Shown here: piece after piece, positions 3,067-10,148 of the stretch | Layout: every line of letters starts with the position of its first letter | Position numbering within the stretch: the stretch's first letter is position 1 | Assembly (NCBI GenBank): GCA_016936035.1 | Contig: JAFGPU010000007.1 | Span: 1-10,712, forward strand | Length of the DNA: 10,712 nucleotides | Reading direction: 5' to 3' | From: Acidimicrobiales bacterium | GTDB taxonomy: Bacteria; Actinomycetota; Acidimicrobiia; Acidimicrobiales; VFJN01 | Notes under the pieces: generated by a model | What the model saw: only the letters and a program-made list of their open reading frames with translations | Database searches by the model: none | What the model was told of the DNA's origin: nothing | Program-made: the position numbers and the translations under genes

Positions 3067-3096
3067 TGATGGGTGTTCCACGTGGAACACCCATCA
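3067..3096. promoter_or_regulatory. parS site 1 within a 30-bp perfect palindrome
   Basis: The core TGTTCCACGTGGAACA (3074-3089) is a perfect 16-bp parS palindrome of the family consensus TGTTNCACGTGNAACA. Here the symmetry runs on for 7 more bases each side (TGATGGG ... CCCATCA), giving a 30-bp palindrome over 3067-3096. It lies just upstream of parA, in its probable leader or promoter region. It is therefore suited to autoregulation of parAB as well as to segregation. Confidence 0.95.
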
Positions 3097-4381: not shown

Positions 4382-4397
4382 TGTTCCACGTGGAACA
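4382..4397. promoter_or_regulatory. parS site 2
   Basis: TGTTCCACGTGGAACA is a perfect 16-bp palindrome identical to site 1, extended by one matching base each side (G4381, C4398). It lies in the gene-poor region, 115 bp from site 3. Confidence 0.94.
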
Positions 4398-4496: not shown

Positions 4497-4512
4497 TGTT
4501 CCACGTGGAACA
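4497..4512. promoter_or_regulatory. parS site 3
   Basis: TGTTCCACGTGGAACA is a third perfect copy, again within an 18-bp palindrome (4496-4513). The centre-to-centre distance from site 2 is 115 bp, about 11 helical turns. Confidence 0.94.
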
Positions 4513-5647: not shown

Positions 5648-5663
5648 TGCTTCACGTGGAACA
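5648..5663. promoter_or_regulatory. degenerate parS-like site 4
   Basis: TGCTTCACGTGGAACA differs at one base (third position, C for T) from TGTTTCACGTGGAACA, the common asymmetric parS variant. It differs at two bases from the three perfect sites in this window. It keeps the CACGTG centre and the complete right half. It may be a weaker ParB site; chance occurrence is unlikely but possible. Confidence 0.65.
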
Positions 5664-6428: not shown

Positions 6429-7196
6429 TCAGAACAACGGGCGCTTGGCGGGCACGCCGTCTCGCCGCGGGTAGGTCTCTGGGCATGTGCTTTCGAGCAC
6501 AAGCGAGCGGTAGTGAAACGGGTCGCTCCACGTCCGCTCGCTCGCCAGGCCCAGTTGTGCCAACCCGTCGGCGGGCCACCGGTCGCCGGGCGCCACGTTC
6601 TGGTGGAGACCGCCGCCGCCCCCGACATCGACCGTCGCCCCCCGGAGCGGGCCGGTCCGGCCCGCGACATCGACCGCCGCATCCCCGTGCGGACGGGCGC
6701 AGTCCGCAGCACCCACGTCGGCCGTCGCCTCTCCGTCGTCGCCGGGCGGCTCGCTCACGACGAGATGCCCGCCGACGACGAGAAACGGCGCCCCGCACTC
6801 CGCGGTCACCGCCGGTGGGCCGAAACCGCGCGCCACCACCGCATCGAAAGCACCGCGCAGCTCGGGTCGCCGACCGGCGTCCTCCGCCCGGGCGCGCACC
6901 ACCGAGACACGGTCATCGCATCCCAACTCGGCGACGGCCTCGGCGAGGAACGCGCAGCGGCGGGCGGACGCGTCGAGCAGGACGGCCTGGCTCGCAGGCC
7001 AGTGGAGGGCGAGCACCAGACCGGGGAGACCGCCCCCGCTCCCCAGGTCGAGGAACCGCTGCGGGGGGGTGCCCAGCCCGGCAGCGAAGCCCCGGGCGTG
7101 ATCGATCTGCACGCGAAGGGAGCCGGGCCCGAGGTAACCCAGGCGCCGGCTCCGTTCGAGGACGCCGTCCAGCGCGGCGTCGTCAGACGTGGTCAT
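6429..7196 (-). CDS. rsmG: 16S rRNA (guanine-N7) methyltransferase RsmG
   Basis: An S-adenosylmethionine-dependent enzyme that methylates N7 of the conserved guanine of 16S rRNA (G527 in E. coli). Its loss commonly gives low-level streptomycin resistance. It is 255 residues long. The SAM-binding motif I FLDLGSGGGLPGLVLA is at 48-63, followed by the strand AVLLDASARRCAFL (71-84). The region RARAEDAG (101-108) and strands through HLVVSEPPG (144-152) complete the fold. The C-terminus YPRRDGVPAKRPLF matches the family ending. Residues about 153-203 form a Gly/Ala/Asp/Val-rich insertion built from imperfect repeats (AxxDV), absent from typical RsmG of about 210-230 residues. Start ATG 7196 has a weak GGACGGG upstream and lies 16 nt after the jag stop; a longer in-frame start at 7274 would run into jag. 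It is the last gene of the rpmH operon. Confidence 0.96.
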   Translation of the reverse strand: MTTSDDAALDGVLERSRRLGYLGPGSLRVQIDHARGFAAGLGTPPQRFLDLGSGGGLPGLVLALHWPASQAVLLDASARRCAFLAEAVAELGCDDRVSVVRARAEDAGRRPELRGAFDAVVARGFGPPAVTAECGAPFLVVGGHLVVSEPPGDDGEATADVGAADCARPHGDAAVDVAGRTGPLRGATVDVGGGGGLHQNVAPGDRWPADGLAQLGLASERTWSDPFHYRSLVLESTCPETYPRRDGVPAKRPLF

Positions 7197-7212
7197 GCGA
7201 CCCGTCCGGTCG

Positions 7213-8229
7213 TCATGCCGGGCGGATGACCACCCGGCGGGCCGCGTCCTCGCCCTCGGACACCGTGACCACACCGTCGATCTCGTTGACGACGTCGTGC
7301 ACGATCTTGCGGTCGGCTGAGCCCATCGGGTCGAGGGCCTTGGCCACCCCGGACTCCTTCACGCTCTCGGCGACGCCGGTGGCGAAGCGCTCGAGCGCCT
7401 CCTTCCGGCGGGCGCGGTAGCCGGCGACATCGACCCGGACGCGCGCGTGCGGCTGTCCCACGAAACGCCGCTGCACCATGCTGCGCACCAGTTCCTGGAC
7501 CGCCTGCAGGGTCACGCCCTTCTGGCCCACGAGGAGGCCGAGCTCGGACCCCTCGACCGCTGCCTCCAACGCCTGGTCGTCGTCGGACACGGTGACCGTG
7601 ACGGTGGCGTCGTCACGGCCGAACGCAGCGACGAGGTCGGTGAGGAAGGCCTCGACCGCCTTGCGCTGTTCCTCGAGGTCGAGCTCGCCCACCTCGGGTC
7701 GATCTGCCGATTGCGTGCTCTCGCTCACCGTTGCTCCCTCTGACGTACGAGACCCGCGGCTGCGGCGCCTCCTGCTGCTCGACGAACTGCCGCCGCTGCG
7801 ACCCCCGGCCGACTGCCGGTCGGGACGGGCGCCGGCCTTCGTGCCGGCGGCGACATCCGCACCGTCGCCCGTGCCGCCGCTTGCCCCACTTCCACCGTTG
7901 CGCGCGCCGTTGCCGCGGGCGCCCGTCGACCGGGCGCCGCTGCGGCTGCGCTCCCGCGAGTCGCTCGCTCCCTTCTTGGGACGGCTGCGGTCGCTGTCGC
8001 GGCCCCGGCGGTCGCCCTTGCGCCGCTCACGCCGCTCGACCTTGGGGCGGGGCGCGGTGGGGCGAACACGCGCGCGCACCTGCGCCTCGGAGCGCAAGCG
8101 ACCGAACAGGCCCTTCTGCGCGTCCTGGACGACCTCGACCTCGGCGTCCTGCTCGTCGACCCCGAGTTGGTCGAGCGCCACCTCTGTGGCCTCTTCGATG
8201 GTCCGGCCGGACGTGACAACCCATTCCAC
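7213..8229 (-). CDS. jag: RNA-binding protein Jag (KhpB/EloR family)
   Basis: A cytoplasmic RNA-binding protein, linked in firmicutes to cell elongation and post-transcriptional control. It is 338 residues long. The Jag-N domain covers about 1-55 with the signature VVQDAQKGLFG (33-43). Next is a long low-complexity linker (about 58-175) rich in Arg, Ser and Gly, including runs of Ser and of Arg. The KH domain covers about 190-268, with the nucleic-acid loop VGQKG (234-238). The R3H domain (about 270-338) contains DRKIVHDVV with the spaced Arg and His. The start is GTG 8229. Its Shine-Dalgarno AGGAAG is formed by the last codons of yidC, and the yidC stop is only 6 nt upstream, so translation is probably coupled. 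The yidC-jag-rsmG order is typical of origin regions. Confidence 0.96.
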   Translation of the reverse strand: MEWVVTSGRTIEEATEVALDQLGVDEQDAEVEVVQDAQKGLFGRLRSEAQVRARVRPTAPRPKVERRERRKGDRRGRDSDRSRPKKGASDSRERSRSGARSTGARGNGARNGGSGASGGTGDGADVAAGTKAGARPDRQSAGGRSGGSSSSSRRRRSRGSRTSEGATVSESTQSADRPEVGELDLEEQRKAVEAFLTDLVAAFGRDDATVTVTVSDDDQALEAAVEGSELGLLVGQKGVTLQAVQELVRSMVQRRFVGQPHARVRVDVAGYRARRKEALERFATGVAESVKESGVAKALDPMGSADRKIVHDVVNEIDGVVTVSEGEDAARRVVIRPA

Positions 8230-9312: not shown

Positions 9313-9542
9313 CAGTGGTGCTTTCCTTCAGGAACGGGATCCCAACCGTGACCACCCCAGGGGTGGCAGCGGCACAAGCGGCGAACGGTCAGGGCGCCGC
9401 CACGCACAGCCCCGTGCTCCTCGAGTGCGTCGAGCGCGTAGTTGGAGCACGTGGGGACGAAGCGGCAGGGCGAGGGTCGACCGTCCGTGACCCTCTGGTA
9501 GAGACGTACGGCGCTGTGCAGCACCCGGGCGAGGAGGGTCAT
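9312..9542 (-). CDS. yidD: membrane protein insertion efficiency factor YidD
   Basis: A small membrane-associated helper of YidC-dependent insertion. At 76 residues it is a normal length for the family. It starts with an amphipathic helix ([15 protein letters not shown]). It then carries the signature [15 protein letters not shown] (about 26-40) and [17 protein letters not shown] (about 55-71), with the conserved Cys residues. The final motif reads GHGWDPVP where GGYDPVP is usual. ATG 9542 overlaps the rnpA stop by 4 nt (ATGA), and GAGGTGG a few bases upstream serves as Shine-Dalgarno. The stop TGA shares one base with the yidC start, so rnpA, yidD and yidC are probably translationally coupled. 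Confidence 0.97.
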
Positions 9543-9895
9543 CGTGCCACCTCGCCCGACGGGGGGTGGGCATCGGCGAGCGCAGCGACCGAGCGCTCGA
9601 GGTCGCGCCGCAGCTCCGCGTAGCTGCGGCCGGCCGCCTCGGGGCGGAGCGAGATCAGGTAGGCGCCGGTGGGCAGGCCGCCGGAGGACCGGTCGAGCTC
9701 GCGCACGGCCGCCCGGAGCCGGCGGCGCACCTTGTTGCGGACGACTGCGGGACCGACCTTGCGCCCGATCGCGTAGGCGACGCGCACCTCGCCGGTGCCC
9801 GGCAGGTGCACGACCGTCATCGGCCCGCGCCGCGCTCGACGTCCCTCGCGCCGTAGCGCGTCGAAGGTCGCACGATCGCTGACCCGCCCGATCAG
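9539..9895 (-). CDS. rnpA: ribonuclease P protein component (start uncertain)
   Basis: The basic protein subunit of RNase P, which helps the catalytic RNA cut 5' leaders from tRNA precursors. The family begins at [19 protein letters not shown] and continues [31 protein letters not shown], containing the RNR-type motif. The stop TGA 9541-9539 overlaps yidD by 4 nt. The start is a problem. A classical 118-residue protein would have to begin at CTG 9895-9893, overlapping the rpmH TGA, or at the following ATC; no ATG, GTG or TTG is in place. ATG 9820 would delete the first helix (93 residues). The frame is open upstream through all of rpmH to GTG 10045 (168 residues, GAGGAGG in front) and ATG 10063 (174 residues). 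I give the CTG-based span as the conserved part, and an extended product is a real possibility. Confidence 0.88.
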
Positions 9896-10026
9896 GCCGA
9901 GAGGCGCTCGCGGCCCTTCCGCCGCCGGGTCCGGACGATCGCGCGACCGGCGCGCGTCTTCATGCGGTGGCGGAAGCCGTGACGAGTCGAGCGTCGACGC
10001 TTGTTGGGCTGGTATGTGCGCTTCAC
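9892..10026 (-). CDS. rpmH: 50S ribosomal protein L34
   Basis: A small, highly basic protein of the large ribosomal subunit. It is 44 residues, the standard length. It begins (GTG read as Met) [20 protein letters not shown] and continues [23 protein letters not shown], matching L34 throughout. GTG 10026-10024 is preceded by GAGGAGG with a 6-nt spacer. The stop TGA 9894-9892 lies where the classical rnpA start would be. rpmH is the first gene of the leftward operon leaving oriC. The whole gene lies inside the upstream extension of the rnpA frame (different register), so both proteins may be read from this DNA. Confidence 0.97.
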
Positions 10027-10148
10027 CTTGTGCCTCCTCGGCCACGCGGCCTCCTCGCGACATGAGCGGGGCCAGCGGCGGGAATCGGAATGATCCTGCG
10101 ACCAACTCGACGCGCGGCGTTGGAGCACCCGCGCCGGTGCCGGGACAA

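Follow-up and report, generated by a model that had tools for sequence, protein, structure and literature searches.

A candidate nested rnpA-rpmH gene pair with tandem Shine-Dalgarno sequences in an Acidimicrobiales bacterium, and putative counterparts in its order

The closest described counterpart of the locus analysed here is the rnpA-rpmH site of Thermus (Feltens et al., 2003, PNAS), where, as excerpts of two later papers describe it, rpmH lies wholly within rnpA in another reading frame and the RNase P protein RnpA is N-terminally extended (PMC9841429, PMC4892627); the site is given there as 5'-AUGGAUG-3' with a single Shine-Dalgarno (SD) sequence, GGAGG (PMC9841429). The excerpted account of 2022 calls it the only bacterial case before E. 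coli pqiA, tamA and narQ, the lambda holin-antiholin pair being also named (PMC9841429). For nested rnpA-rpmH genes in Actinomycetota, no report was found in the open-access literature. A general kind of gene contact is the stop-start overlap (AUGA, GUGA, UUGA) with translational coupling.

The window, by which we mean the whole stretch of 10,712 nucleotides analysed, stems from contig 317 of a 555-contig draft genome (3.2 Mb, 68% complete). On its minus strand, rpmH is followed by rnpA, a small ORF, which we take by its place to be yidD, and a YidC-family gene. Elsewhere in the window, between the ParA gene (2007-2900) and the RsmG gene (6429-7274), the palindrome GTTCCACGTGGAAC occurs in three perfect copies and one copy with two mismatches (3075-3088, 4383-4396, 4498-4511 and 5649-5662; 0.04 expected) and is presumably parS-like. 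The features that bear on the start of RnpA are the following.

9892..10026, minus strand: rpmH (ribosomal protein L34, 44 aa, GTG start), matching PF00468 (Ribosomal_L34) over 1-44 of 44
9539..10045, minus strand: rnpA as proposed for the nested reading (168 aa and stop codon), matching PF00825 at residues 54-153
10061..10063, minus strand: ATG, disfavoured alternative upstream start (174 aa), with a weak SD (-1.5 kcal/mol) and not in the sister species
10050..10055, minus strand: SD1, AGGAGG, 4 nt before GTG 10045, duplex energy -11.8 kcal/mol, kept in the sister species
10043..10045, minus strand: GTG, proposed RnpA start (168 aa), in frame, open through rpmH and conserved among homologues
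10033..10038, minus strand: SD2, AGGAGG, 6 nt before the rpmH start, duplex energy -11.8 kcal/mol
9893..9895, minus strand: CTG overlapping the rpmH TGA, rival RnpA start (118 aa), with TTG, GTG or ATG here in 50/117 loci of the same offset
9818..9820, minus strand: ATG at which the window's gene call begins (93 aa, P0036), situated too late, with the profile match beginning at 38 of 109

Extending from GTG 10026 to TGA 9894-9892, rpmH is wholly enclosed by the extended rnpA frame, which is +2 relative to it and ends at TGA 9541-9539, so that in the window rpmH lies inside an open rnpA frame having a start upstream of rpmH. A preceding sequence-only reading of this DNA had noted that rnpA lacks an ATG, GTG or TTG from the rpmH stop down to ATG 9820 and that its frame stays open upstream through rpmH to GTG 10045 and ATG 10063; both observations are borne out on the sequence, and TTG 10105 and GTG 10222 are further possible in-frame starts upstream. 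After rpmH no standard start precedes ATG 9820, yet a CTG is present, as the junction GCC-TGA-TC reads CTG(9895)-ATC-GGG in the rnpA frame. An assembly error behind this junction appears unlikely, because the junction letters recur unchanged in G006, another genome of the genus.

With 61.4 bits against the RNase P profile PF00825, the 168-aa RnpA scores well above the curated cut-off of 22.3. The form starting at CTG 9895 matches the profile from position 6, the form starting at ATG 9820 from position 38 of 109. In an AlphaFold model of the 168-aa protein (46 sequences, mean pLDDT 80.5), residues 58-67 form the first helix, upstream of residue 76, which corresponds to ATG 9820, and residues 1-50 are of low confidence and devoid of secondary structure; the model indicates that the N-terminal extension of about 50 residues is probably disordered. 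The placement of ATG 9820 behind the conserved first helix, as the sequence-only reading had it, agrees with this predicted helix and with the 37 profile positions lost, and for these losses ATG 9820 was rejected as the RnpA start. Profile and model place it too late, and the RnpA start should therefore be sought no later than CTG 9895, although the window's listed gene call is the 93-aa form (P0036).

Upstream of rpmH, the second AGGAGG is offset from the first by 17 nt and the two GTG starts, 10045 and 10026, are 19 nt apart, each with an anti-SD duplex energy of -11.8 kcal/mol as compared with -2.6 kcal/mol for CTG 9895 and -1.5 kcal/mol for ATG 10063. Both SDs, both GTG codons and the junction CTG are identical in the sister species of the same genus (G006), where the frame is open and ATG 10063 is absent. 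We consider it likely that rnpA and rpmH are nested in the window and that RnpA is made mainly from GTG 10045 (168 aa). The strongest support for this reading lies not in the open frame but in the conservation of a start codon that is served by a separate SD and does not share the rpmH frame. Ribosomes binding SD1 would start RnpA at GTG 10045, while other ribosomes binding SD2 would start L34 at GTG 10026; reading of RnpA would cross the whole of rpmH at +2 and yield a protein of 168 aa in which the extension of about 50 residues precedes the usual RNase P fold. We infer that GTG 10045 is used and is the source of most RnpA, that RnpA and L34 are both made from one mRNA, the two SDs of which are shared out among ribosomes, and that the extension is tolerated, not needed. 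The junction CTG may yield some short RnpA too, and long and short forms, with both starts in use, could occur together. Of the two options put forward by the sequence-only reading, the nested one is thus the better supported, but with two SDs and a 19-nt offset the layout is unlike that of Thermus, and of the two lengths proposed, the strong SD favours 168 aa over 174 aa.

Homologous proteins were collected with the 168-aa form (best 120 of 230 matches) and the 118-aa form (best 120 of 149) as queries, pooled and sorted by a motif script. Among the 159 different clusters in the matches listed, 104 carry the extension, 42 have a late start, nine start at the junction and four are of other types, counts in which the 168-aa query favours extended proteins and in which, since gene callers choose between rpmH and an extended rnpA, the 42 late-start calls are uninformative on their upstream frame. 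Sixty-three of the 104 extended clusters listed are called from the position of GTG 10045, and the 41 that begin further upstream have V (37), G (2), A (1) or Q (1) at this place. The junction residue is L in all 102 parsable extended clusters listed, where L may be CTG or TTG. The nine listed clusters called from the junction have L, V or M as first residue and 56-72% identity to RnpA of the window; among the clusters listed, none above 72% identity starts at the junction. Considered together with a junction ATG in the genome G001 of the same family, these junction-starting homologues suggest that a standard junction start is the older one. Two predicted proteins, P0107 and P0151, carry the first part of L34 fused in frame to RnpA and are perhaps deletions or products of chimeric contigs. 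The nine named loci found with RnpA of the window are labelled Acidimicrobiaceae (six), Clostridia (two) and Actinomycetes (one).

For a survey of the order, in which rnpA was found in 370/397 genomes, 30 loci and 100 further places were taken from the rnpA search lists, the loci being drawn from the better-scoring places, so that weakly scoring rnpA genes are under-sampled. The 242 loci of the collection as a whole were reduced to 210 distinct ones upon removal of L008, which is without an RnpA match, of L031, L074 and L180, which are without a recognised rpmH, and of near-identical sequences. A missing standard rnpA start is not rare in the order (91/210 loci), and 117/210 loci share the junction offset of the window, with CTG (64), TTG (39), GTG (8), ATG (3) or GTA (3) as the codon in question. 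Four loci, L024 and L038 (f31) and L187 and L193 (f39), have rnpA frames with neither ATG, GTG or TTG nor a junction CTG, and the draft genome G386 holds two rpmH-rnpA loci of unlike type (L070 and L075), perhaps by contamination.

This distribution bears on the alternative that RnpA (118 aa) is started at CTG 9895 by coupling to rpmH termination at the TGA it overlaps, in which case GTG 10045 and the openness of the frame would be incidental; we regard this alternative as rather unlikely for the window. The offset is widespread, and its junction codon is a standard start in the 50 loci with TTG, GTG or ATG; in genus g106, it is TTG in five genomes and CTG in five. At the junction, TTG and CTG have similarly weak mean SD energies (-3.96 and -4.05, respectively), and SD-less coupling to rpmH therefore seems usual at junction starts. 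Among the 24 loci with neither a standard start nor an open frame, 12 have the offset of the window and 11 of these a CTG, and because this CTG is kept despite a stop-closed frame, it or the codon after it probably serves as the rnpA start in part of the order. A CTG start, which the sequence-only reading had offered together with ATC as its second option, is hence a live one, and as far as standard starts are concerned these 11 loci have the junction CTG only; in the window, GTG 10045 is possible as well. However, a start at CTG leaves the conserved SD1-GTG pair unexplained, and in genus g130 (f16), where the rpmH stop is TAA, the junction codon is GTA and the upstream AUG is kept (3/3 genomes).

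A start at ATG 10063 (174 aa), by which the genes would still be nested, is very improbable: the codon is in frame and open, and the two homologues with G in place of V at the position of GTG 10045 (P0030, P0033) have a Met upstream, but it was rejected for its weak SD (-1.5 kcal/mol) and its absence from the sister species. Hardly any credence is due to ATC 9892 beside the CTG, a codon that follows the junction CTG in both the window and G006 but to which no signal points, or to the late ATG 9820, which equals the gene call P0036 but costs the 37 profile positions and the first predicted helix.

Returning to the nested reading with its start at GTG 10045, the sequence-only reading had named an ATG or GTG at the 9895 position in relatives, or stops in the extended frame in close relatives, as evidence against it. 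Both occur in the wider family, as genus g2 (G001) has ATG at this place and, upstream, a GTG whose SD is weaker, and genus g3 has stops in the extended frame in the three genomes with the locus, together with a different junction offset; in the genus of the window, G006 is open and has CTG. The tandem form, defined as an NTG that has an SD and lies in the +2 frame at 10-60 nt upstream of rpmH, is present in 14/210 loci, 13 of them in an open rnpA frame (f1, 3; f3, 7; f53, 3) with the upstream start at -19 in twelve and at -22 in one; the exception, G145 (f23), has GGTGA as its match and its rnpA in a different frame. A later standard start is present in three of the 13, as ATG in G001 and as TTG in G418 and G336, and missing from the other ten. 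Within genus g55, two genomes possess the second SD, together with ATG and an open frame; in the three that lack this SD, the junction CTG is the same and stops interrupt the frame. An SD-backed upstream start occurs in 10/41 open loci without and in 3/47 open loci with a later standard start (Fisher test, P=0.03).

A single shared SD with starts one nucleotide apart is not the layout of the window; it is that of 30 other loci of the order. An ATG stands 4 nt before rpmH in 32/210 loci, 30 of which, distributed over seven families (f2, f8, f10, f16, f29, f38, f55), have a GTG start of rpmH (AUG-N-GUG); all 30 are in an open rnpA frame, 26 have no standard start further on, and in 27 the SD match reaches at least 5 nt. 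The later standard start is missing in 26/31 loci with an in-frame upstream AUG vs 65/179 others (P=8e-7, kinship ignored), a link that is weak within f16 alone (18/21 vs 4/7), where G354 and G289 have the CTG and no upstream AUG. In four loci with an unlike junction offset and no later standard start (L046, L088, L138, L226), the upstream AUG is still in frame. A further locus of f16, L057 (G399), has a stop in the rnpA frame just past rpmH and no standard start, and both its genus mates have the upstream AUG, which points either to a genuine loss or to an error in the assembly. In a pattern search over whole genomes, AUG-N-RUG was seen ahead of rpmH in 22/397 genomes of the order (reversed control, 0), 20 with AUG-N-GUG and two with AUG-A-AUG (frame closed in G196, open in G341). 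Across the phylum, the same pattern, which overlooks any rpmH whose Met and Lys are separated by a residue, was found in 0/396 genomes, 30 of them from the order.

Openness of the frame as such was rejected as proof of coding, as the extended frame is open in 65/91 loci with the junction offset of the window and no AUG 4 nt before rpmH, and is therefore weak evidence of nesting. A codon simulation gives a chance of an open frame per locus of 0.46 for f16, and underestimates openness, since f54, with TTG at the junction in 13/13 loci, is open in 10/13 loci vs 0.31 expected. Wobble T of the kind that gives rise to a stop is found in 0/98 cases in genus-collapsed f16, yet in only 12/290 in GC-matched loci without AUG; a further set of wobble-T counts, for nested loci, is partly circular because open loci had been selected. 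The reduced synonymous change in rpmH that the sequence-only reading had proposed to look for was not found: the rpmH/rnpA ratio of fourfold-site divergence comes to 0.89 for nested f16, other groupings giving 0.68-1.26, and between the window and G006, 8/26 fourfold sites have changed in rpmH vs 31/62 in rnpA (P=0.11). Selection on the amino acids of the RnpA extension was likewise looked for and is not visible.

On balance, it seems somewhat more probable than its opposite that the enclosure of rpmH in rnpA extends beyond Thermus to ten families of one order of Actinomycetota in two designs, a shared-SD AUG-N-GUG in seven families and, in three, tandem SDs with the upstream start some 19 nt ahead of rpmH. 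These designs would have been acquired or given up repeatedly, alongside a third arrangement in which rnpA starts at a CTG by coupling to rpmH termination. A tree of 113/210 loci built on L34 and RnpA, with rough support, requires at least nine changes of the AUG label and at least six of the tandem label, among which gains are indistinguishable from losses and the tandem label of which omits G316, G034 and G239 (SD match of 4 nt). If true, an essential gene pair would be arranged as nested genes in many uncultured bacteria, and gene callers would often truncate RnpA, as in the late starts of 42/159 homologue clusters listed. The presence of nested, CTG and standard starts among close relatives would moreover allow a test of the origin of overlapping genes, for the birth and loss of which the order would form a natural series.

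Compared with the Thermus site as the excerpted sources present it, the window has in common that rpmH is enclosed by rnpA in another frame with a predicted N-terminal extension of RnpA, and differs in having two SDs, starts 19 nt apart that are both GTG, and CTG as a possible second start. The AUG-N-GUG loci of the other families of the order, with a single SD and a 4-nt offset, follow the design in those excerpts closely. With stop-start overlaps the locus shares, in many relatives, an rnpA NTG over the rpmH TGA; here, in contrast, the codon is CTG and is accompanied by an SD-backed upstream start. E. coli pqiA and tamA, according to the excerpts of PMC9841429, likewise have two nearby starts in different frames, in tamA with two SDs, but their AUG and GUG codons overlap (AUGUG) and the second start serves a short ORF, whereas the window concerns two essential genes. 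As judged by its predicted starts and SDs, the tandem-SD layout of the window is a variant of the Thermus design.
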